Below are positions 14,978 to 59,593 of a stretch of 59,594 bases of DNA, piece by piece. The stretch comes from Eubacterium sp. (GTDB lineage: Bacteria; Bacillota; Clostridia; Lachnospirales; Lachnospiraceae), in contig JAFXZW010000109.1 of assembly GCA_017541035.1 (NCBI GenBank), positions 1 to 59,594 on the forward strand. Reading direction: 5' to 3'. Position 1 is the first letter of the stretch, and every line of letters starts with the position of its first letter. The position numbers and the translations under genes were made by a program. The notes under the pieces were generated by a model that saw nothing but the letters and a program-made list of their open reading frames with translations, ran no database searches and had not been told where the DNA came from.

Positions 14978-15115
14978 GTCAGAACCTCAAAAAAATAATA
15001 CTCCATACTTATCTTACCCGCGCCCCCTCCTCTTTTCAAGTCAAAAATCGTTTATCTACTCTGAAGGTGCGAAAACAGTGGGATCATCTGTAACGGAGGA
15101 ATTCTTCCAAAGTGG

Positions 15116-15202
15116 TACGGGGACAGGCTAAGTGCCACATGTGTAGCTGAAGTTTTTTATTCTTCAGATAGGCATGTGAACGTGTACCTGTCCCCGGATC
15201 AC
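15116..15202. repeat. Long imperfect inverted repeat (GGGGACAGG family)
   Basis: TACGGGGACAGG at the left pairs with CCTGTCCCCG at the right. CACATG/CATGTG and an inner CTGAAG/CTTCAG hairpin form further stems, for one rod of about 85 bases. It lies downstream of the Rpn fragment and upstream of the exporter pair. Similar GC-capped rods are common non-coding repeats in Clostridia; it could also act as a terminator. Confidence 0.6.
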
Positions 15203-15214
15203 TTTTCTTCCGCA

Positions 15215-15883
15215 TCACATCTGCGGCTCATACTGTGCCAAACGCTCAGATAGAAGGCGAATCAATTCATCCTTGCTCGCCAGCTCTTCATCCTTGCTCG
15301 TCAGCTCTTTATTCATGCTCGCCAGCTCTTTATTCATGCTCGCCAGCTCTTTATTCATGTTCGCCAGCTCCTCCGCTTTACTATCCAGTTGCTCCTCCAT
15401 TTCGATCATTTTGTCTATATATTCATCCATATCCAGTTCCAATGAATGATCCCGATCTCGCATTTCCTCGACCCCCTCTCGTATCTCATCATATTTGCGA
15501 TACAAATGATCCATGAGCATTCTCGTAAAACTCATTAGAGCCGTTTCGTCACTGCCTTTGATCTCTCCTGCCTGATAAGCCTGCGATATCGTGTTCATTA
15601 TATCATTTTTGTAGAGGTCGAGCAACTTTTGAATATCTTCCGGTTCCCGTTTCTCCGCCAGTAAAGATCGAAGACTAAGGAGCTTGAAAGGAAGCAGAAT
15701 CACCATACTTTTTTCCCTGATTTCTCTCGGTGTCTGCTCCTGAAACCGGATTACAGTAATATTCTGTTGATGCGGACATTGCACTTCCTGCAGATTTGAG
15801 CTTAGTATCCGGATCTGGAGAATACGGAACAGCTGCTCGTCACTTAAGAACCTGTCTTGGGAAAATGATTTGCTTTTTTGCAT
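15215..15883 (-). pseudogene. C-terminal fragment of an Rpn/PD-(D/E)XK-type nuclease (transposase-like)
   Basis: 222 residues. The part REIREKSMVILLPFKLLSLR and the following helices match the C-terminal half of Rpn-family putative transposase/nucleases. The N-terminal nuclease domain is absent: the frame starts at an ATG with no ribosome-binding site, 44 bases inside the 3' end of the next gene. The tail has 7-residue repeats (NKELASM, SKDELAS), predicted coiled coil, from a 21-bp tandem repeat at about 15280-15370. It is probably a remnant left by a deletion or insertion. Confidence 0.6.
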
Positions 15884-16898
15884 CCAAAACTACATATTCC
15901 ACTATCGCTTCCTCAGTCAGGGTAACCTTCACGATTACCTTCTGTCCGAAATAAGCACTGGGGATCCTGCAGGTTCCGATGGGATCATCGTTCTCCCGGT
16001 TACGGTAATTTCCGGAATAAAAGCAGAGGACATTGTCCGAAGAAACCGGAAGCTCCACTGTTTTTTGGGCCGGAAGAGGGGTATTTCTTCTGAAGAGTTC
16101 CAGCAACTCCCCGCCCACACCGGAACTGATACTGATCCCCTCGATACAGCAATCCACGGAAAAGCATTTTTTGATCAGTTCTTCTTTTTCGGAGTTCAGC
16201 TTCAGGAGATGTGCAAAGGCTCCTCTCGCCTGATCGTTATCGAAAGACACCGTTTCTTTACTGCAAAGGGCCTGCAATTCTTCAGTGAACAGGCGTTTCA
16301 AATACTCTGAACGTTCATCAAAGGTGATATAGAGTGCCTCGTTCCTCTCTCCGAATTCCAGGCCTGTCTCTTTGTACATTGCCCTTAATTCGGCTTCTAT
16401 TTTTCTCTTCAGTTTTTCCGGGTCAAGCCTTCCGGGATCCTTTTCATACTGAATTGAGGCAGAACTCATTACCGACAATACATCTCCGTCCACATCAAAC
16501 AGCAGGAATTCCGCATAATCCGGGCGAACGGAACTAAGCAAAATGGTTTTCCTTCCCAGTTCCTCATTCTGAAAAAGTCCGTAGGCCGATGCCAAAGCCC
16601 CCGTGATCAGCTTTTTTAGCTTGATTCCGCACTCTGTTGCAGCCCTCTTCACCCTTTCCCGTTGCGAATAGGTTACGTACTGGGGGAGCACACATATTGC
16701 TTCCGTGATCACGTCTCCCGCCGTAAGCTCAACCATATCCTTAACAACACGCATCAGCGCATTGATGGCCCCCTCGATCCGAAACAGATCCGAAGTCCGA
16801 AACCCGATGGTATTTCGGAGAGCTTCCGAAACGATCTCATTTCCGTCTGCACAGGCATAAGAAATGACATCTCCGGTAAGATCAATGGATACTAACAT
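15840..16898 (-). CDS. Short divergent Hsp70-like protein
   Basis: 352 residues (Hsp70 is about 600). The segment AICVLPQYVTYSQRERVKRA, then ATECGIKLKKLITGALASAYG, corresponds to the Hsp70 block 'VPAYFNDxQRxATxxAGxIAG ... INEPTAAALAYG'. A later part, GISISSGVGGELLELFRRNT, matches the junction where the substrate domain begins (G-(V/I)-x-x-x-GG-x-x-x-x-x-I-x-RNT). The phosphate-1 loop DLGTT is replaced by SIDLTGDVISY, and the EPT motif is TGA. ATPase activity is therefore doubtful. GAGGAGG lies before ATG. Its last codons overlap the Rpn fragment, so the C terminus may be truncated. Confidence 0.6.
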   Translation of the reverse strand: MLVSIDLTGDVISYACADGNEIVSEALRNTIGFRTSDLFRIEGAINALMRVVKDMVELTAGDVITEAICVLPQYVTYSQRERVKRAATECGIKLKKLITGALASAYGLFQNEELGRKTILLSSVRPDYAEFLLFDVDGDVLSVMSSASIQYEKDPGRLDPEKLKRKIEAELRAMYKETGLEFGERNEALYITFDERSEYLKRLFTEELQALCSKETVSFDNDQARGAFAHLLKLNSEKEELIKKCFSVDCCIEGISISSGVGGELLELFRRNTPLPAQKTVELPVSSDNVLCFYSGNYRNRENDDPIGTCRIPSAYFGQKVIVKVTLTEEAIVEYVVLDAKKQIIFPRQVLK

Positions 16899-17052
16899 AC
16901 TCTTCCTCCTCTGTTTGCATTGCTGCAGACTTTATCCTTGTCTTGCAAAACGATTATAACATATAATTTACCAGCAACGAAACACTATTTCCTTTGGAAT
17001 AATCATTCTGATTCCAAACCCCTTTCCCATTCGCCAAACTCTGAACCCCATT

Positions 17053-17315
17053 TTTTGCGAGTTACTATTCACGGGTTAACCGATAGCCCAGATCAAAAAG
17101 AAAATACATAGGTAAGGTAGATCCGGTAACGAAGGAGATCATTCCTTCACAAAAAAACAGCAAGCAGGAAAGTGAAAAAACAAGCCAGCAGCAGGATCGG
17201 AGCATTGAGTAATGCAGTGCTCCGATAAAAGCGGTGTATTTATGAGTGGGAGCAACTATGTGGCTGTTCCCGCTTTTTTATAGGGATCATAACCCGTGAA
17301 TTGTAACCTTTTGCG
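17053..17315. mobile_element. MITE-like element with terminal inverted repeats and 7-bp target duplication
   Basis: The element runs from 17060 to 17308. The left end AGTTACTATTCACGGGTTA and the right end (read in reverse) GGTTACAATTCACGGGTTA match at 17 of 19 positions. TTTTGCG flanks both ends directly (17053-17059 and 17309-17315). No transposase is encoded in the 249 bp. Inside are two hairpins: ATCGGAGCA/TGCTCCGAT, and a GTGGGAGCAAC/GTTCCCGC stem followed by a T run (17245-17280). The gene-free stretch 16899-17432 holds this element and the aroD promoter. Confidence 0.7.
17245..17280 (+). terminator. Hairpin with T run inside the MITE-like element
   Basis: GTGGGAGCAAC and GTTCCCGC form an imperfect stem, followed by TTTTTTA. 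It would stop rightward transcription within the element, or mark the end of a short RNA encoded by it. Confidence 0.5.
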
Positions 17316-17346
17316 ACATCTGAATAATCCTCAAAGCCAAAAATAA

Positions 17347-17375
17347 GTGACATTCCGTTTCTGCTGTGATAAAAT
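17347..17375 (+). promoter_or_regulatory. Promoter candidate for aroD
   Basis: GTGACA (17347-17352), 17-bp spacer, TAAAAT (17370-17375), 57 bases upstream of the ATG. It lies just outside the MITE-like element. Confidence 0.45.
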
Positions 17376-17432
17376 AATAGTATATATCTGTCATTGTCAG
17401 AAATCTCTTACAGAAAGGAAGGTGAGGCTTTC

Positions 17433-18230
17433 ATGGGAAAGTTTTCCATACGAAATGTCGTCTTCGGCGACAGAAATCCGAAGATCTGTGTTCCCATCGT
17501 CGGTCGCACCGATGAAGAGGTTCTGGCACAATCTGCCGCGATCCGGGAGGAATCTGACAGGATCCGAAAGCTCGGTCTCCGGCCGGGACCGGTTGTGGAT
17601 ATGATTGAATTCCGGGCGGATTACTATGACAATGTAACGAATCAGACACAGCTTACGGAGCTCCTTCGAAAGCTGCATAATGACCATCCGGAACGTCTGC
17701 TGCTCTTTACTTACCGCAGCGAGGAAGAAGGCGGCGAGCTTCGTCACGACCGTGCCGAGAATATGATCGATGATATCTCTGCCTGGGCCATGGTGAGCGG
17801 TGTTATCGATCTGATCGATATTGAACTGCTTTCCGGCAACTACCGGGTAGTGAGAAATGCCACAAAAGCCCGCGATCTGGGCATCGGTGTCGTGATGTCC
17901 TACCATAATTTTGAGAAGACACCTCATACGGACGAAATGGAGGAGCTACTCTGGGATATGGAGCAACTGGGAGGTGATATTCTGAAGCTTGCAGTAACGC
18001 CGCGTAATCATTTTGATGTAGACCGCGTACTGGAACTGACGGAGGCTGTCACCCGCGGAAGTGCCTCTCACCCCATTTCCCGTCCAGCGGTTTTGATTTC
18101 CATGCAGGAGGAGGGTGTGAAAACACGCACATCCTGCGCAAAAACAGGAAGCGCATTTACCTTTGCCACTATCGGTACGGGTTCAGCGCCCGGCCAGCTC
18201 AGTCTGGAAGAAATGGTAAAAGCACTTTAG
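17433..18230 (+). CDS. aroD: Type I 3-dehydroquinate dehydratase
   Basis: 265 residues. The start at 17433 is preferred for AAGGAAGGTGAGG upstream; an ATG 39 bases earlier lacks one. The class I fold is clear: EFRADYYD near residue 61, LFTYRSEEEGG, catalytic His in VMSYHNFEKTP, Schiff-base Lys in ILKLAVTP, and the C-terminal FATIGTGSAPGQLS. It converts 3-dehydroquinate to 3-dehydroshikimate in aromatic amino acid synthesis. It is a single-gene unit with its own promoter and terminator; no other shikimate gene is near. Confidence 0.95.
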   Translation: MGKFSIRNVVFGDRNPKICVPIVGRTDEEVLAQSAAIREESDRIRKLGLRPGPVVDMIEFRADYYDNVTNQTQLTELLRKLHNDHPERLLLFTYRSEEEGGELRHDRAENMIDDISAWAMVSGVIDLIDIELLSGNYRVVRNATKARDLGIGVVMSYHNFEKTPHTDEMEELLWDMEQLGGDILKLAVTPRNHFDVDRVLELTEAVTRGSASHPISRPAVLISMQEEGVKTRTSCAKTGSAFTFATIGTGSAPGQLSLEEMVKAL

Positions 18231-51331: not shown

Positions 51332-53992
51332 TCAGAGTCTATACTGCTCCCGCAGTTCTTCCTTCTTCATCCTGACCGCATCCCTCAGATCTCTTGCGGA
51401 AAGCAGTCTGGCATCAGCCCCCCGTATGATCAGCTGTATCATGCCGTCGGATGTGGCTACCGTTATATCATACTTCTTCTCATGCTCTGTGGCAAATCGG
51501 GCGATATACTGATCCGCAGTCTCCGCCTCCCTGGTAAATACAACATGCAGATTTCCGTAATCCATGGCCTCCGTCCGGTGTCCCGGAACCCTGTAGGCAT
51601 CAAAAACCACAATGATCTCCGGCGTCGTCACTGCCCGGTAATCCGTCAGCATATCCAGCAGAACTCCCCTGGCCGCAGTGAGATCCGTCTGAACCAGCTC
51701 CCGGGTCTCCTCCCAGGCATGCAGGATATTATATCCATCCACCAGTAGATACGGCTTCCTCTCCAGTACTGCCTTTCGCGCTGTCTTCTGGGACTTCTCC
51801 CCGTCTCCGCGCCCGTCAGAGTCCCGTCGTCCATTTGCCCGCGCCCAGCGGTTTCTCCGCTCGGAAGCATGCTCCTTACTTTCATTGGCATGGGTTGCCT
51901 GCTGCAATATGGCATCGATCTCATCTGTTCCGATTGCCTCCAGCCTTTCGGAAAGAGGCATCCGCGGCCTCACTTCCTTTTGTTCCTCTTCCCCCGGATA
52001 AAATGTCTCATACCGCGGTTCGATATGCATCCATTCCGGAGCATCCTGCCAGGAAATGAGTGCCGCAGCTCCATGATCCACAAAAACCGAACTCGCAGGA
52101 TGCAGAAGGTCTCTCTCCGCATCATAACCACATGCTTCGATCACATCTTCCGGATTTGCACAACGATCATACCCGTCATACAGCATCCGGAACAACCCCT
52201 CTCCGTGGGTGTAGGTCCGCACCTCTGCCATATAATTTCTCAGCTTTGACAGAGCTCCTCTGCCCTCCAGCGTCGTCTCCTTTTCTGTCTGCTCCGTGAT
52301 CCTGCTCTCCTCAGCCAGCTGTCCCATATCATAAAGGGCACGACCTGCCGCTTCCTGCGGAACCGTCAGCGTAAAACGAACATAAGGTTCCAGAAGCATC
52401 GGCTTCCCGGCCATCAGTCCCTGACGGATCGCCCGAAGCGCTGCCTCCCGGAAATCGCCGCCCTCCGTATGCTTCTTATGAGCGCGCCCTGCAGCCAGCG
52501 TGATCCGGAGATCTGTCAGCCGGGCATTGGTAAGCACTCCTGTCAACGGCTCATTTTCCACCGCAGAAAGGATCGTCTGTTGCCAGCTTCTGTCCAGTTC
52601 ATCCGTGGAAAGACTGCTTTCCAGAAGAATCCCGGTTCCCCGCGGAAGGGGTTCCAGCAGGAAATGTACCTCCGCATAATGCCGCAGCGGTTCAAAATGT
52701 CCCACTCCATAGGATGGTTCCTCCAGTGTTTCCCGGTAAACTACCGAACCCTCATCAAATGATACCGTGATGCCGCATCGCTCCCGGATCCTCTCCGTCA
52801 AAATCTCTTTCTGCACCTCTCCGTAAAGTGCAACCGTGATCTCCTCATGCCCTTCGCTCCAGTCAAAAGCAAGGGTGGGTTCTTCCTCCTCCAGCACCCG
52901 AAGTTTCTGAAGAAACGGTCTGGGATCCGTTCCCTCCGGCAGGATGAGCCGGAATCGCAGCATGGGACGACTTGACTCCGGATGTGCGGAAGGCGCAGCC
53001 CCCAATCCGCTTCCCGGGGACACAGCAGAAAGTCCTGTCACGGCAACGATCTCACCCTTTTCCGCCGACGGAAGCGCCTCATATGAGGCACCGTCATATC
53101 GCCGGAGCTGAGTTACTTTTTCAGAGAACGCTTCGTCCTTCGCAATATAATTCACTGTCTCGCGGACAGACAGCTTCCCGCTGAGGATTTTTATAAAACA
53201 CTGCTTCTGTCCCGAAGCGTCATAAAGCACCTTATAACAATAAGCGCCGAAGGATTCCTCCGCGCTTTTCCGTTCCGCTTTCTCTCCGCAGACATCGGCC
53301 GGAATAATATCTGCTGTCTGATCATCCAGCAGTTTCCCCAGCATTCCCAGCAATTCATCGATTCCTTCACCCTGCAGTGCAGATCCGAAGCAACAGGGGT
53401 GAAATGTACCCCGCCGAAAAAGGCGGCAAAAATCACTTTCCAAAAGACTGCCTTCCCGAAGATACCGTTCCAGTACTTCCTCATCCAGCACTGCCGCGGC
53501 TTCCGCACGTTCAGCAGGATCGCCGTACCAATCCGCGAAGCCTTCTCCCAGGGTGTCTGTCAGCTGCTGCAAAAGTCCCTTTCTGTCTGCACCGGGGAGA
53601 TCCATTTTGTTAAAAAAGATTGCAGTCGGAATCCCCCGCTCCTGAAGCAGGCGGAAGAGATACCTGGCATGAGCCGGTATTTTCTCTCCCGCTCCGATCA
53701 GAAGAACCGCCGTATTAAGAACAGGCAGAACCCGTTCGGATTCTGCCGTAAAATCCACATGCCCCGGGGTATCCAGCACAGTCAGCATCAGATTCCCGAG
53801 GGGCAAATGGCACATTTTCGAAGTGATCGTGATCCCTCTGGCCCGCTCCTGCGCATCGGTATCCAGAAAGGAGGTCCCGTGGTCCACACGACCGGCCTCT
53901 TTTCTCCTCCCGGAAGCCACCAGCAGCTGTTCGATCAACGTGGTTTTTCCTGCGTCCACATGAGCAAGGACGCCGATGGTGAGATTCTTCAT
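51332..53992 (-). CDS. TetM-like ribosomal GTPase fused to a Rae1/YacP-type NYN nuclease
   Basis: 886 residues from the ATG at 53992 (AGGTGG upstream; a GTG nine bases earlier is possible). G domain: AHVDAGKTTL, ARGITITSK, DTPGHVDF and NKMD. EF-G-like domains follow to about residue 640, as in Tet(M)/Tet(O), but the domain-IV loop that in Tet(M) reads YSPVSTPA is different (AGRAHKKHTEGGDF). After a polar linker (about 690-740) comes a NYN/YacP domain (746-886): LLVDGYNILHAW, VVFDAYRV, FTREAETADQYI, VATSDGMIQ, a close match to Rae1, which cleaves mRNA in the ribosomal A site. It follows the GGDEF/EAL gene by 9 bases. Confidence 0.88.
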   Translation of the reverse strand: MKNLTIGVLAHVDAGKTTLIEQLLVASGRRKEAGRVDHGTSFLDTDAQERARGITITSKMCHLPLGNLMLTVLDTPGHVDFTAESERVLPVLNTAVLLIGAGEKIPAHARYLFRLLQERGIPTAIFFNKMDLPGADRKGLLQQLTDTLGEGFADWYGDPAERAEAAAVLDEEVLERYLREGSLLESDFCRLFRRGTFHPCCFGSALQGEGIDELLGMLGKLLDDQTADIIPADVCGEKAERKSAEESFGAYCYKVLYDASGQKQCFIKILSGKLSVRETVNYIAKDEAFSEKVTQLRRYDGASYEALPSAEKGEIVAVTGLSAVSPGSGLGAAPSAHPESSRPMLRFRLILPEGTDPRPFLQKLRVLEEEEPTLAFDWSEGHEEITVALYGEVQKEILTERIRERCGITVSFDEGSVVYRETLEEPSYGVGHFEPLRHYAEVHFLLEPLPRGTGILLESSLSTDELDRSWQQTILSAVENEPLTGVLTNARLTDLRITLAAGRAHKKHTEGGDFREAALRAIRQGLMAGKPMLLEPYVRFTLTVPQEAAGRALYDMGQLAEESRITEQTEKETTLEGRGALSKLRNYMAEVRTYTHGEGLFRMLYDGYDRCANPEDVIEACGYDAERDLLHPASSVFVDHGAAALISWQDAPEWMHIEPRYETFYPGEEEQKEVRPRMPLSERLEAIGTDEIDAILQQATHANESKEHASERRNRWARANGRRDSDGRGDGEKSQKTARKAVLERKPYLLVDGYNILHAWEETRELVQTDLTAARGVLLDMLTDYRAVTTPEIIVVFDAYRVPGHRTEAMDYGNLHVVFTREAETADQYIARFATEHEKKYDITVATSDGMIQLIIRGADARLLSARDLRDAVRMKKEELREQYRL

Positions 53993-54001
53993 ATCCGCCA
54001 C

Positions 54002-56650
54002 CTATGATTCCGCTAACTCCCGATAATGAGAGTCTTCCATTCTCTTCTCAAATTCCTCACGCGGCATCGGCCGGTCAAAGAAGAAGCCCTGCGCCTGATC
54101 ACAATGGCTCTCCTGCATCAGCTTCAGCTGTGCCTTCGTCTCCACGCCTTCGACGATACTTTCCATGCCAAGTCCCTGTGCCATGGATACAACGGTCCGG
54201 AACATGATATTCTTCTTCTGCTCCTCCGGCTCCCCCTCCACGGGAAGGAAGCTGCGGTCGATCTTCAGCACATCCCAGGGAAGATCACGGATCAGTGTCA
54301 GCGAAGAGAATCCGATACCGAAATCATCTACCGCCGTCTTAACACCGCTTTCCTGCAGTCCGGAAACGATACGGCGAAGATCTACAAAATGCGAATCCGT
54401 CGTAGTTTCTGTCAACTCGATCTCCACATATTCATGTGGCACCTGATTCCTGTCGATTACCTCAAGGATATGCCGTAAAATGTCTACATCCGCCAGATTC
54501 CGCCTTGACAGATTCACGGATACCCGCGGAACCTCCCGCCCCTCGTCCAGCCAGCGGCGGATATCCCTGCAGACATGATCCAGCATGTACATATCCAGCG
54601 CACAGATATCCATGCTCTGCTCCAAATGAGGAATAAAATCTCCCGGAGGAATCATTCCGGTACCCTTGAACCAGCGACAAAGTGCCTCTGCACCCACCAG
54701 CTTATAGGTACGCATATCCACCTTCGGCTGGTAGAATACCCGGAACTCTTCATTCTCCAGTGCATCGTGGAAGGAGGTTTCCACCTCCATTTCACGTTCC
54801 GTAGATTTTACCATAGCCGCATCAAAATAAACGATCGCTGTGTCCTTACTTGCCTTCGCCCGCGAAGCTGCCCGGGTGACGCGGTCCATAATCTCCCCGC
54901 GCAAATGCAGCGATCCATCATCCGGAATCTGATAAACACCCACGGAAGCACCCACCCGGATCCGGTCACCGGTTTCATCATTGTACACGATGATGGACTC
55001 TTCCAGCATATCCAGGATATCATCCTCATGATCCTTATCTACCAGAAGCACAAAATTATCCCCGCCCAGGCGGCAGATCATTTCATCTCCCGACAGCTGG
55101 GAAGCGATCTCATCTACAAACCGCTTCATTACCAGATCGCCCAGCTTATGCCCGATCTGCTGATTCACAGCCGTAAAACGTCTCATATTGATACGCATGG
55201 CCGTATAATCAGACAGCTTGCGCTCATGTGCCAGTCGTCCGAGTACGCCAAAATAATACTTCACATTGCGGATTCCCATGTCCTGATCATAAAAGCTGAG
55301 GCGCTCCGCGATCTCCTGCAGACGTTTCCTCCCATTGAATACAAAACACATCCGGAGCAGAAGATCCACACGATCCCTCTCCAGCGTCTGCCAGTCCGGC
55401 TCACCCTCTCTGATCACGGCACGGTAATAGGCAATATTAAAACCGCCCGTCACATATCTGCGTTCGATATAACGGGTTTCATCCGTACTCCCACAGTTAT
55501 AGATATCAAAGCTGCTGCCTTCTCCGTAATGTTCCTTCTCCTGACTGTCGAAATACTGCACACCGATACGTCCGACCCGCAGATACTCCGCCAGCTCCTT
55601 CAACTGCGGTGTGTAATCTCTGGCCAGAATATGGCCCGAACGGCGAACTGCGGGATCTTCATCCATTTTAATGAAAGCCTCCCGGAATACATTCAGGATC
55701 TTCCTGACATCCTCCGGTTCCCTGTCAAGCTGCAGAGCCGCTTTCTTTTTTTCGTGATGTACGCGCTTTACCTCATACATCCGCATATCGCCTTCCCGGA
55801 GGAACTCATCCACATCCTTGATCTCGCCACGGCGGGATACAATTCCCACACTGATAGTCAGCAGCTCCGGGCGTTCCGGGATCAGTGTCTGCACTTCTCC
55901 CTCCAGCTGAGCGATCTTATCATTCAATAGATCCGAATGATACTCTTCTTCCAGAAGAACCGCGAATTCATCTCCTCCCAGACGGATATTGATACCATAG
56001 GGAAATATCTGATCCAGAATCGATGCAACCCTTTTCAGTATTTCATCACCCCGTGAATGCCCGAAAACATCATTGACGTTATGAAAATTATCAAGGTCCA
56101 TATAGAGCAGAGTCCACATCAATGCGGATTTCTCATGCAGATAATTCAGAAAATATCTCCGGTTGTAAAGTCCTGTCAGATCATCCGTCATGGCGATCCG
56201 CATGATATCCTTCTCAAATGACCGGGCTGTTGCGATGCTCTGTGGGATCCCGTAGCCCTCCGGAACCTTCCCGAAATACCGCATCGTCTCCTGCTCAGCC
56301 TTAAGGACATGAAGCAAAGCCTGGAAATAGGTCTTCAGATCAACAACGGAATCCAGCTGCGGCCAGATTACCGCTGAATAGAGGATATCCTCTTTGAGCG
56401 TCTCCTCCTTCCTGCCTTTCCCCTTTAGTGTGATCCCCACACCCACAATGAGATAATCCAGTCTCTCTGCCTTTTCCAGCAGGTAACGGTTCGAAGAAAT
56501 GAATACCGGAAGCGCATCCGATATTCTGACCGGATCCTCGTCCCAATATTCCACTGAAAATTCAACACCTTCCTCAGGAACAACTTCCCGGAAAGCATCG
56601 ATCGCGTCTTCACCCAAATCTGTAAATATCCTAATCTTCAGTTCAAACAT
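54002..56650 (-). CDS. Dual-GGDEF and EAL cyclic-di-GMP protein
   Basis: 882 residues from the ATG at 56650 (GGAG upstream); a start 39 bases earlier is possible. The N-terminal 130 residues are receiver-like without an obvious phospho-Asp. First GGDEF (about 165-305): RLGGDEFAVLL, intact. A middle region of about 150 residues follows. The second GGDEF has RLGGDNFVLLV (GGDNF), so it is probably inactive or GTP-sensing. EAL domain (630-875): GAEALCRW, IELTET, VDDFGIGFSS, KIDRSFL and EGVET are all present, so phosphodiesterase activity is likely. It is cytoplasmic and translationally linked to the ribosomal GTPase-nuclease. Confidence 0.9.
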   Translation of the reverse strand: MFELKIRIFTDLGEDAIDAFREVVPEEGVEFSVEYWDEDPVRISDALPVFISSNRYLLEKAERLDYLIVGVGITLKGKGRKEETLKEDILYSAVIWPQLDSVVDLKTYFQALLHVLKAEQETMRYFGKVPEGYGIPQSIATARSFEKDIMRIAMTDDLTGLYNRRYFLNYLHEKSALMWTLLYMDLDNFHNVNDVFGHSRGDEILKRVASILDQIFPYGINIRLGGDEFAVLLEEEYHSDLLNDKIAQLEGEVQTLIPERPELLTISVGIVSRRGEIKDVDEFLREGDMRMYEVKRVHHEKKKAALQLDREPEDVRKILNVFREAFIKMDEDPAVRRSGHILARDYTPQLKELAEYLRVGRIGVQYFDSQEKEHYGEGSSFDIYNCGSTDETRYIERRYVTGGFNIAYYRAVIREGEPDWQTLERDRVDLLLRMCFVFNGRKRLQEIAERLSFYDQDMGIRNVKYYFGVLGRLAHERKLSDYTAMRINMRRFTAVNQQIGHKLGDLVMKRFVDEIASQLSGDEMICRLGGDNFVLLVDKDHEDDILDMLEESIIVYNDETGDRIRVGASVGVYQIPDDGSLHLRGEIMDRVTRAASRAKASKDTAIVYFDAAMVKSTEREMEVETSFHDALENEEFRVFYQPKVDMRTYKLVGAEALCRWFKGTGMIPPGDFIPHLEQSMDICALDMYMLDHVCRDIRRWLDEGREVPRVSVNLSRRNLADVDILRHILEVIDRNQVPHEYVEIELTETTTDSHFVDLRRIVSGLQESGVKTAVDDFGIGFSSLTLIRDLPWDVLKIDRSFLPVEGEPEEQKKNIMFRTVVSMAQGLGMESIVEGVETKAQLKLMQESHCDQAQGFFFDRPMPREEFEKRMEDSHYRELAES

Positions 56651-56864
56651 TTCTTTTCTCCGCTCTGCATTTTCTTGCCTGACTATCATGCCTGTACTGC
56701 TTGTCGAAAGCTGATCCCGTCTTTCCGGACAGACTTCCCCGGCATCGGATACCCTACGTCGCCTATTTTTACCCGGTATTGTACCCTATAAAAATCCACA
56801 AGTATCATACCATAAAACAGGCATAAATGCCACATTTATAATTCCGAAAAAAGTCGTGCAAAAA

Positions 56865-56908: not shown

Positions 56909-59593
56909 TTATTTCTTTGCTTTTTTCTTCTTCAGAACGACACCTGCAAATCCACCTGCAGAGATCATCATCAGAATAAACAGCATGGTGATCGGGGTCT
57001 CATCACCTGTCTGAGCCGTCTTATCCGACGGCGGCCGACGTGTAGAGGTATCTGTTGTGACTATCTCAGCGACATGATGCTTAACCTGATCCGTCTCAAC
57101 GATCTCGGTCTTTGTCTGTCCGGTTGTTACGGTATAACCATCCGGAACACGGATTACCGTGATCTTGTACTCACCGGTCTTTGCCAGATAGCGACCCTTC
57201 TCATCCGTCTTTGTCAGCTCGGTAACCATACCATTTTCATCTGTGATGAAGGTATGTGTAGAGCCATCCGGATAGATCACTTCTACAGTTGCTCCGGGAA
57301 CCGGTTCCTTCGTCTTCTCATCGATAACCTTGATATCAAGTCCGCCGGTAGAAGGAGCGATCTTTGCTTCCAGCTCAGTGAGTTCATTTACGAATACTTC
57401 GCCTGTCTGCTTCTCGCCAACTGTTACATGATAGCCCTCAGGAACCTTAACAACGGTGTACTCATACTCACCGGGTTCAGCTACATAATTACCGAACTCA
57501 TCGGTCTTGGCATACTCGGTAACCTGTCCGTTCTCATCAGTTACAAAGGTCTTCTTCACGCCTTCAGAAGTGATAACAACTACTTCTGCTCCTTCAACAG
57601 GCTCTTCCGTATCCTCGTCAAGAACTGTGATGATGATAGCACCCTTCGCCGTAGCGATCACTGCATCATGATGTCCTTCGCCGTCCTTCGGAACAGTTAC
57701 CGTTCCGACTTCACCGGTTTTAACATCATAACCCGTCGGTACTTCAGATACTGTAACAGTATACTTGCCGGCCGGAACAACAGGGATCTTTCCATCCTTA
57801 TCAACGATCACACCGTCTTCATTTGTAGCATAAGTTCTGGTTGTACCATCTTCATCCGTGATCACAACCTTGGCATACGGTACATCCTTTCCGGATTTTT
57901 CCTCGATCACGTGTACAGAGATCTTTCCGGTCTCCTCCACAGGCTTCTCAGGATACTCATTGTCAAATGCTACCGTTACGGTCTTTCCGGCTTCAACTGT
58001 TACTCCTGCTGTCTCGCTTACCGTCTTCTTACCGCCGTTCAGCTTATAGCTTACAGTAACAGCCGCACCACTTGCCTCATTGTAATTCTTCTCGGTAATG
58101 GTGTAATCGCCAAGATCCTCTTCGGAAATCGTAATCTCCTTCGTGTAAACGCCGCCACTCTCGGTAAAGTCACTCAGCTTATACGTTGTGGAAGCGCCGG
58201 TCTTGGTATTGGTAACTACGAAGCAAAGCGTCTTCTTATCAGCTTCAACCACCGGACCACCAAAGGTCTTGGTGATAACCAGCTTGCCTTCCTTCGGAGG
58301 CTCAACCGGCTCAACCGGCTTTACAGGATACTCATCGTTAAATGCTACCGTTACGGTCTTGCCATCCTCAACAGTTACTCCTGCTGTCTCATTTACGGTC
58401 TTTACACCGCCGTTAATCTTGTAGCTGACCTCAACCTTCGCACCGCTTACCTGATTGTAATTCTTCTCGGTAATCGTGTAATCTCCGAGCTCCTCTTCCT
58501 CCAGATCCAGAGTCAGGGTAAATTCATGTGTCAGCGGATTCTCATCAAACGCGCTCAGCTTATACTCTGTACTTACACCTGTTGCCGTGTTCTTCACTTC
58601 GAAGGAAAGGGTCTCCTTGTCTTCATCAACAACGTCACCACCAAAGGTCTTGGTAATGATAAGCTTGCCGGACTTCTTCATGGGTTCAGGCTGCTTACCG
58701 GGATACTCGTTGTTAAATGCTACCGTGATCTCATCCTTATCTCCGATGGAAACAGATGCGGAATCACTCTCTGCCTTCAGACCGCCATTGATCTTGTAGG
58801 AAACCTCAACATCCGCGCCACTGATCTCGTTATAGTTCTTCTCAGTAACGGTATATTTGCCAAGCTCGGTTCCTGTCAGCTCAATCTCGCAGATCCAGGT
58901 ATCACCAACCGGCGTGAAATCATCCTTCAGAGTATAGGTCTTTCCGGAGATATCACCATCCTTCTTGACGATAAACTTCAGATAATCAAAGTCTGCTTCT
59001 ACCACTTCACCGCCAAAAGTCTTGGTGATGATGAGCTTGCCCTTCTGCGGAGCATTCTTCAGGATGATAACACCGTCTTCAAAATCAACTACACCTTCGA
59101 TGGTCTCAATAAGTACTTTTCCATCATTATCTACGGTAAACTTGATCTCAGTATTAACCTTCTCATAACCAACCGGTGCTGCTGTTTCCTGGAAATAGTA
59201 AGTTCCTGCTTCTAATTCAAAGGTCTTTGCCGTTGCGCCGGATGTCCAGCTCTCAAGCTGCTTCTTATCCGCATCCTTAAGAACGATCACGGCACCGGAT
59301 ACTGCTGTTCCGCCAAGATCTGTCTTGCTGATGGATACCGGATACTTCTTCGGTGCATTCTTCGGTGCATCCTTCAGGATGATTACTCCGTCCTTCAGTT
59401 CTACACTACCGGATACAGTTACAACATTAACCTTTCCGTCATTCGCTACTGTAAACTCGATTTCTGTATCAACCTTCTCATATCCTTGCGGTGCTGCTGT
59501 TTCCTTGAATAAATAGGTTCCTGCTTCAAGTGACAGTGTCTTCGCTGTCTTTTCGGATGTCCATGTTGTCTTTTCAGTTTCACCCTTCTTCCA
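56909..59593 (-). CDS. Repetitive Cna_B/SpaA-like cell-wall-anchored surface protein (5' end outside window)
   Basis: 894 residues are visible; the frame is open to the window edge, so the GTG at 59290 is not the true start. Domain order: two SpaA-like units (TFELEAGTYYFQETAAPVGY type), three about 95-residue units (KLIITKTFGG ... YTITEKNYN ... KTVTVAFNNEYP), then four Cna_B units (DIKVIDEKTKEPVPGATVEV type). The end is DKTAQTGDE, a hydrophobic helix (MLFILMMISAGGFAGVVL) and KKKKAKK: a sorting signal with AQTGD in place of LPxTG. Such proteins are pilins or adhesins stabilised by isopeptide bonds, linked to peptidoglycan by sortase. Confidence 0.85.
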   Translation of the reverse strand, partial: WKKGETEKTTWTSEKTAKTLSLEAGTYLFKETAAPQGYEKVDTEIEFTVANDGKVNVVTVSGSVELKDGVIILKDAPKNAPKKYPVSISKTDLGGTAVSGAVIVLKDADKKQLESWTSGATAKTFELEAGTYYFQETAAPVGYEKVNTEIKFTVDNDGKVLIETIEGVVDFEDGVIILKNAPQKGKLIITKTFGGEVVEADFDYLKFIVKKDGDISGKTYTLKDDFTPVGDTWICEIELTGTELGKYTVTEKNYNEISGADVEVSYKINGGLKAESDSASVSIGDKDEITVAFNNEYPGKQPEPMKKSGKLIITKTFGGDVVDEDKETLSFEVKNTATGVSTEYKLSAFDENPLTHEFTLTLDLEEEELGDYTITEKNYNQVSGAKVEVSYKINGGVKTVNETAGVTVEDGKTVTVAFNDEYPVKPVEPVEPPKEGKLVITKTFGGPVVEADKKTLCFVVTNTKTGASTTYKLSDFTESGGVYTKEITISEEDLGDYTITEKNYNEASGAAVTVSYKLNGGKKTVSETAGVTVEAGKTVTVAFDNEYPEKPVEETGKISVHVIEEKSGKDVPYAKVVITDEDGTTRTYATNEDGVIVDKDGKIPVVPAGKYTVTVSEVPTGYDVKTGEVGTVTVPKDGEGHHDAVIATAKGAIIITVLDEDTEEPVEGAEVVVITSEGVKKTFVTDENGQVTEYAKTDEFGNYVAEPGEYEYTVVKVPEGYHVTVGEKQTGEVFVNELTELEAKIAPSTGGLDIKVIDEKTKEPVPGATVEVIYPDGSTHTFITDENGMVTELTKTDEKGRYLAKTGEYKITVIRVPDGYTVTTGQTKTEIVETDQVKHHVAEIVTTDTSTRRPPSDKTAQTGDETPITMLFILMMISAGGFAGVVLKKKKAKK
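57870..59040. repeat. Three long coding repeats in the surface protein
   Basis: Three units of about 95-100 codons start at KLIITKTFGG, KLIITKTFGG and KLVITKTFGG (reading leftwards from about 59040, 58680 and 58300). They share the block NGG-K-T-V-x-E-T-A-G-V-T-V and end in (N/D)EYP. The second and third are nearly identical over long DNA stretches, pointing to recent duplication or recombination. Confidence 0.8.

Follow-up and report, generated by a model that had tools for sequence, protein, structure and literature searches.

A gene joining an EF-G/Tet-like GTPase and a Rae1/YacP-type NYN nuclease domain in one reading frame is best read as encoding a chromosomal housekeeping endoribonuclease directed to the ribosome, in effect a Rae1 tethered to its own GTPase and replacing the stand-alone Rae1 in its lineage, a reading to which we give a probability of about one half. 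The gene lies in a window of 59,594 nucleotides, by which we mean the whole stretch of DNA analysed. The fusion put forward by a first-pass annotation is real, although as a novelty it does not stand, since a report from 2015 already described Tet proteins of ten clostridial species that had gained a YacP-like NYN RNase domain (Atkinson 2015, BMC Genomics 16:78, PMC4342817). These Tet-NYN fusions of Clostridiales share the architecture of the window gene, i.e. a Tet-type GTPase followed at its C terminus by a YacP-like NYN domain, and the accessible portions of that report propose a new resistance mechanism and list RNase ability as a property to be tested. No other paper was recognised as treating the fusion in the fusion-directed literature and in the part of the Rae1 literature covered. 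The architecture was therefore known; what is added here is that the fused copy seems largely to have replaced free rae1, that the fused GTPases group in a single clade and that their tip motif is conserved.

Reading frame, domains and nuclease residues

In the open reading frame listing, the minus-strand frame 51332-54001 is uninterrupted and amounts to 889 aa if read from GTG 54001. The most likely true start, judging from the sequence, is ATG 53992 (residue 4 of this frame), because the alignment of most homologues starts there and AGGTGG stands directly 5' of it, overlapping the stop of the upstream GGDEF/EAL gene. The earlier placement of a GTPase and a Rae1/YacP-type NYN domain in a single frame is borne out by the intact 886-aa frame and its Pfam domains (Table 1), among which NYN_YacP scores 145.6 bits against a cut-off of 24.6.

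Table 1. The fused gene, its parts and its upstream neighbour in the window (residues numbered in the 889-aa frame)
Feature	Position	Strand	Remarks
Fused gene	51332..53992	-	886 aa counted from ATG 53992 to stop 51332
G domain (GTP_EFTU), aa 6-224	53330..53986	-	Pfam 3.6e-41
EFG_III, aa 354-415			Pfam 3.6e-4, 21 bits, below its cut-off of 27
EF-G domain IV (EFG_IV), aa 419-531	52409..52747	-	Pfam 6e-14
Domain-IV tip H508-D516 (HKKHTEGGD)	52454..52480	-	replaces Tet(M)-type YSPVST
EF-G domain V (EFG_C), aa 536-616	52154..52396	-	Pfam 1.1e-12
C-terminal cap, aa 617-661	52019..52153	-	common to unfused sister GTPases, whose ends fall here
Linker, aa 662-748	51758..52018	-	between cap and NYN_YacP
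Short conserved linker motif near E694 and I698	51896..51922	-	
NYN_YacP (Rae1-type) nuclease domain, aa 752-887	51341..51748	-	Pfam 1.8e-42
GGDEF/EAL gene	54002..56689	-	895 aa; stop overlaps the start region of the fused gene

Domain IV is the best conserved domain of the fused proteins, with a median identity between the window protein and the others of 57.9%, followed by the NYN domain (51.1%), the G domain (44.7%) and the linker (16.7%). The linker has an aligned length of 64-139 aa and shows little conservation beyond E694 (E in 44 of 46 fused proteins) and I698 (I in 42 of 46); its second half is basic, with a net positive charge in 45 of 46, and it may form a flexible, RNA-hugging tether. 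A structure prediction of the fusion from three sequences reached a pLDDT of only 36 and contributes nothing to our conclusions.

The four nuclease motifs picked out beforehand are all present in the translation (DGYN 755-758, FDAYR 800-804, ETADQYI 827-833 and ATSDG 849-853). The NYN part matches the solved Bacillus subtilis YacP/Rae1 chains 5mq8 and 5mq9 (E 4.3e-18), with which it shares the NYN_YacP domain and its acidic residues, D755, N758, D801, E827, D830 and D852 being identical in the window protein. Among the 46 intact fused proteins, N758, T828, A829 and Q856 are invariant, as are D755, D801, D830 and D852, while position 827 is E in 29 and Q in 17; loss of acidic NYN residues, named in advance as counter-evidence, is not seen as a rule, position 827 being the exception.

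Distribution and ancestry of the fusion

Two named MAGs carry the fusion with 66-67% identity to the window protein, and the fusion was found again in every larger sample. We scored it by the length of the NYN_YacP-bearing frame, both the GTPase and the NYN domain being searched only in the class sample. In the family sample, NYN_YacP occurred in 118 of 130 genomes, within frames of at least 840 aa in 106, of 516-690 aa in three and of less than 400 aa in nine. The order sample had NYN in 122 of 137 genomes, 50 of them counted as fused, including three with shorter frames (G276, with the GTPase confirmed, and G203 and G263, scored on the frame only), and 72 with stand-alone frames only. Within the class sample, where a GTPase was assigned to the clade on its profile score and on a match extending to the cap (G427, with 577 bits and ending at 600, was left out and the contig-cut G452 kept in), NYN was present in 133 of 196 genomes and a GTPase of this clade in 84, the latter comprising 69 intact fusions, six separate pairs, four broken or ambiguous cases and five genomes in which no NYN was found; a further 54 genomes had NYN without this GTPase. 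At the phylum level, frames of 877-914 aa were present in 12 of 110 NYN genomes, nine of which lie outside the class. Since long fused frames recur in most NYN-bearing genomes of the family and again in other orders and classes, an assembly join or frameshift artefact was ruled out.

A frameshift or two separate genes, which had been anticipated as signs of such an error, are likewise absent as a rule. The fusion appears as two adjoining frames in two genomes only, split inside the linker at L135 (4017-6699) and in domain V at L169 (3133-5759, minus strand), each being either a true split or a sequence error; both were left unmended and excluded from residue counts.

The GTPase phylogeny was a quick tree with SH-aLRT support only, in which fused proteins were truncated at 700 aa and columns less than 60% filled were dropped. 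It placed the 46 fused and two split proteins in one clade (SH-aLRT 100), separate from 29 unfused relatives, and set these 77 off from ten Tet-like and two EF-G-like frames with a support of 99. Duplicates and cut or broken frames (L012, L013, L018, L058, L080, L081, L083/L136, L087 and L097) were omitted from the trees, as was L067, by choice of rows. In the NYN tree, whose bootstrap had not settled, nine fused rows stand apart, so that two changes are needed, and a single change was recovered in no bootstrap tree; holding all 48 fused or split NYN domains together was not rejected (p-AU 0.22). A single origin of the fusion is thus well supported by the GTPase sequences and unsettled by those of the nuclease domain, and a later exchange of the NYN domain is possible. 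Four GTPases of the clade (L161, L162, L163 and L164) branch near the split between fused and unfused proteins, and no NYN_YacP was found in their genomes.

Probable displacement of free rae1 and genomic context

Seven loci were viewed for the neighbourhood of stand-alone rae1, with L120, L121 and L124 left out; the gene lies between rlmB-like and sigH-like frames, named by eye, at L119, L122, L127 and L128, and not at L123. Two fused genomes (G214 and G056) retain in the rlmB-sigH gap decayed, internally deleted stretches of rae1 (best E 3e-45 and 9e-13), and the close kin G292 and G276 have an intact rae1 in that gap plus a fused copy. In the class sample, each of the 69 genomes with a fusion has a single NYN match above the cut-off; second matches were weak and below it in G418 and G469, and a piece at a contig edge in G090 of the family sample. 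In the genome of the window, an assembly 95% complete, the check suggested by the first-pass annotation found no separate rae1/yacP, the fused copy being the sole NYN_YacP. Its rlmB-sigH gap was sought and not found, the sole match being a SpoU-type methylase frame beside a DNA polymerase III-like frame, both named by eye. Whereas Rae1 of Bacillus subtilis is a stand-alone protein, the nuclease of the window is fused to a GTPase and has neighbours other than rlmB and sigH, a context that is no strict criterion, as L123 also lacks it. The fusions look like one old event, which would have largely displaced free Rae1.

No conserved operon partner was found for the fused gene: leaving aside its own family, no family of neighbouring genes recurs in more than three of 31 loci, GGDEF/EAL being likewise unconserved. 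The gap on the upstream side has a median of 146 nt, and at seven of 32 loci the upstream gene is close and runs in the same direction. In the window, the overlap between the stop of the GGDEF/EAL gene and the start of the fused gene suggests a possible translational coupling of this pair in the window. Upstream of both, positions 56909-59290 on the minus strand hold a large repetitive frame of surface-protein type with an LPxTG-like end (QTGDE), named by eye. An Rfam scan gave no match near the fused gene; elsewhere in the window it identified two GA-cis RNAs (RF02987; 3945-4032 and 13072-13154, minus strand; 71.8 and 53.6 bits). Promoter and terminator scans gave matches to consensus only and were not used as evidence.

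Monoglobus pectinilyticus and Agathobacter rectalis have full-length or nearly full-length matches on large secondary replicons, and such matches are also carried by two unannotated 'Bacteriophage sp.' faecal scaffolds that are possibly bacterial DNA; on one unannotated and unverified scaffold of this name (L178, MT835514.1), positions 15001-17517 match the fusion over its full length. Rae1-like NYN-domain genes were found on 97-99 kb plasmid records of Clostridioides difficile (H29 and H30), 12 such records being matched. The query also matches 33 Ligilactobacillus plasmid records, and on a megaplasmid of Ligilactobacillus salivarius an unfused sister-like GTPase (L177, 4986-6920) adjoins a second rpsN (S14).

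Proposed function and alternative readings

In the proposed mechanism, the GTP form would bind paused 70S ribosomes whose A site is free, and domain IV, with its conserved HxKHT tip, would go into the decoding site. GTP hydrolysis would release domain IV while the basic tether holds the nuclease at the ribosome; the tethered nuclease would sample and then cut the exposed A-site codon, and the shortened mRNA would pass to rescue and decay. Both modules need the A site and must therefore act in turn, and the simplest use of the fusion would be for the GTPase to pick out ribosomes in which the A site is free and to pass them on to the tethered nuclease. We infer the ribosome binding, the GTPase and RNase activities, the preference for an empty A site, the order of events and the cleavage itself. 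The model is favoured by the conservation of the G and NYN domains, the identity to the Rae1 chains, the fixed tip, the loss of rae1 and the single GTPase clade, and also by what is reported of Rae1, whose dependence on translation and action at the A site fit a factor with an EF-G-like tip that would enter the same site. Against it stand the substitution of E827, the extra NYN matches in G276, G292, G090, G418 and G469, a NYN tree that does not itself give one origin for the fused domain, an association between GTPase and free NYN seen in the family sample only, and the Rae1 of B. subtilis, which, in the parts of the literature consulted, apparently works without such a GTPase.

We tentatively consider a further possibility, a one-chain A-site surveillance nuclease clocked by GTP, in which domain IV would sense an A site left empty for long (by a drug, a hungry codon or a pause), hydrolysis would time the hand-over to the Rae1 domain, and the protein would stand in for free Rae1 in much of Clostridia. 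Such surveillance would make the fusion a bacterial counterpart, in a single polypeptide, to the pairing of a recognition GTPase with a no-go nuclease.

It is less likely that the nuclease fills the role of free Rae1 while the GTPase merely parks it on ribosomes or serves an independent function, delivery not being driven by GTP. Free Rae1 of B. subtilis acting without a fused GTPase is in keeping with this alternative, as are the class genomes with NYN and without this GTPase, and those with an unfused GTPase in which no NYN was found. Among genomes without the fusion, GTPase and free NYN were associated in the family sample (5/0 vs 2/12, p 0.0018; the broken fusions G138 and G093 excluded), more weakly in the order sample (16/0 vs 56/13, p 0.12; G245 and G272, GTPase fragments at contig ends, excluded together with fused genomes) and not in the class sample (6/5 vs 53/58, p 0.76; excluding the four broken or ambiguous cases and G479, whose 451-aa NYN frame is probably a cut fusion). 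The raw class value (p 7.6e-13) was set aside because it is driven by the fusions themselves. We therefore abandoned the idea that the GTPase strictly depends on NYN; the missing association in the class sample weakens the case that both always worked together and, with the five genomes lacking a detected NYN, implies that the GTPase also acts in its own right. The alternative is opposed by the invariance of the GTPase residues in all 46 fused rows, in which D16, G18, K19, T20, T58, D77, G80, H81, N131, K132 and D134 are retained throughout, and H14 in 43.

More doubtful is a protein protecting ribosomes from tetracycline or another drug, with the NYN domain adding RNase activity, as suggested in the available portions of PMC4342817. 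The GTPase part aligns end to end with TetO/TetM, the EF-G-like domain order is common to the window protein and Tet(M)/Tet(O)/Tet(W), and some members are labelled TetM/TetW/TetO/TetS family by NCBI (H2). However, the window protein differs from these in its domain-IV tip, its separate clade and its added cap and NYN domain. The YSPVST tip occurs in none of the 75 clade rows (0/46 fused, 0/29 relatives) and in three of ten Tet-like controls. In its place, the pattern H.[KQE][HY][TS] is present in 44 of 46 fused, 25 of 25 unfused and 4 of 4 GTPase-only rows, compared with one of ten Tet-like and neither of two EF-G-like rows outside the clade. The HxKHT motif is not wholly private, as its HT part is also found in the Tet-like L084, L085 and L098, and His508 falls in the column of a His present in both EF-G-like frames. 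Since the tip residue Pro509 of Tet(M) overlaps tetracycline (PMC7456112, as far as its accessible text goes), Tet(M)-style tetracycline protection by the fusion seems unlikely, in agreement with the earlier argument that the altered loop, here seen to be a conserved feature of the clade, speaks against simple tetracycline resistance.

Family profiles point the same way less sharply: the window protein scores 383 bits and the other scanned clade members 391-512 with NCBIfam tet_protect (NF012153), below its cut-off of 775, which is no sharp test since four of five scanned Tet-like controls also miss it (L084, L085, L090 and L098; L093 passes with 830). Among the 69 class genomes with a fusion, at least four (G190, G330, G342 and G432) also have Tet-like frames of 643-644 aa, recognised by length and score only. 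With NCBIfam EF-G (TIGR00484), the window protein reaches 217.6 bits against a cut-off of 659.4, and the same genome has longer EF-G-like frames at other loci (L002 and L008). Unfused clostridial sister GTPases have the same tip and cap as the fused proteins, but no NYN domain; the 'translation factor GTPase family protein' of the Ligilactobacillus salivarius megaplasmid shows about 38% identity over aa 1-672.

Least probable is a target in rRNA or tRNA maturation or turnover, which was the original NYN-domain proposal (cited in the accessible part of PMC4342817) and would suit the rlmB-like ancestral neighbour, an rRNA methylase gene named by eye, but Rae1, the characterised relative, requires translation for its activity, is said to attack mRNA at the A site and has been suggested to gain access to ribosomes that have stalled (PMC10100781, PMC12320835 and PMC6613710, in the sections available).

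If the reading of the fusion as a Rae1 tethered to its own GTPase is true, many clostridia would possess an mRNA nuclease that is coupled to translation and brings its own motor for binding the ribosome. Databases label part of these proteins as tetracycline resistance, and the annotation of chromosomal genes of commensals as resistance genes would then need correcting. The fusion would also point to the ribosome state recognised by Rae1, one open to an EF-G-like factor, and would offer a natural tethered system for A-site cleavage.
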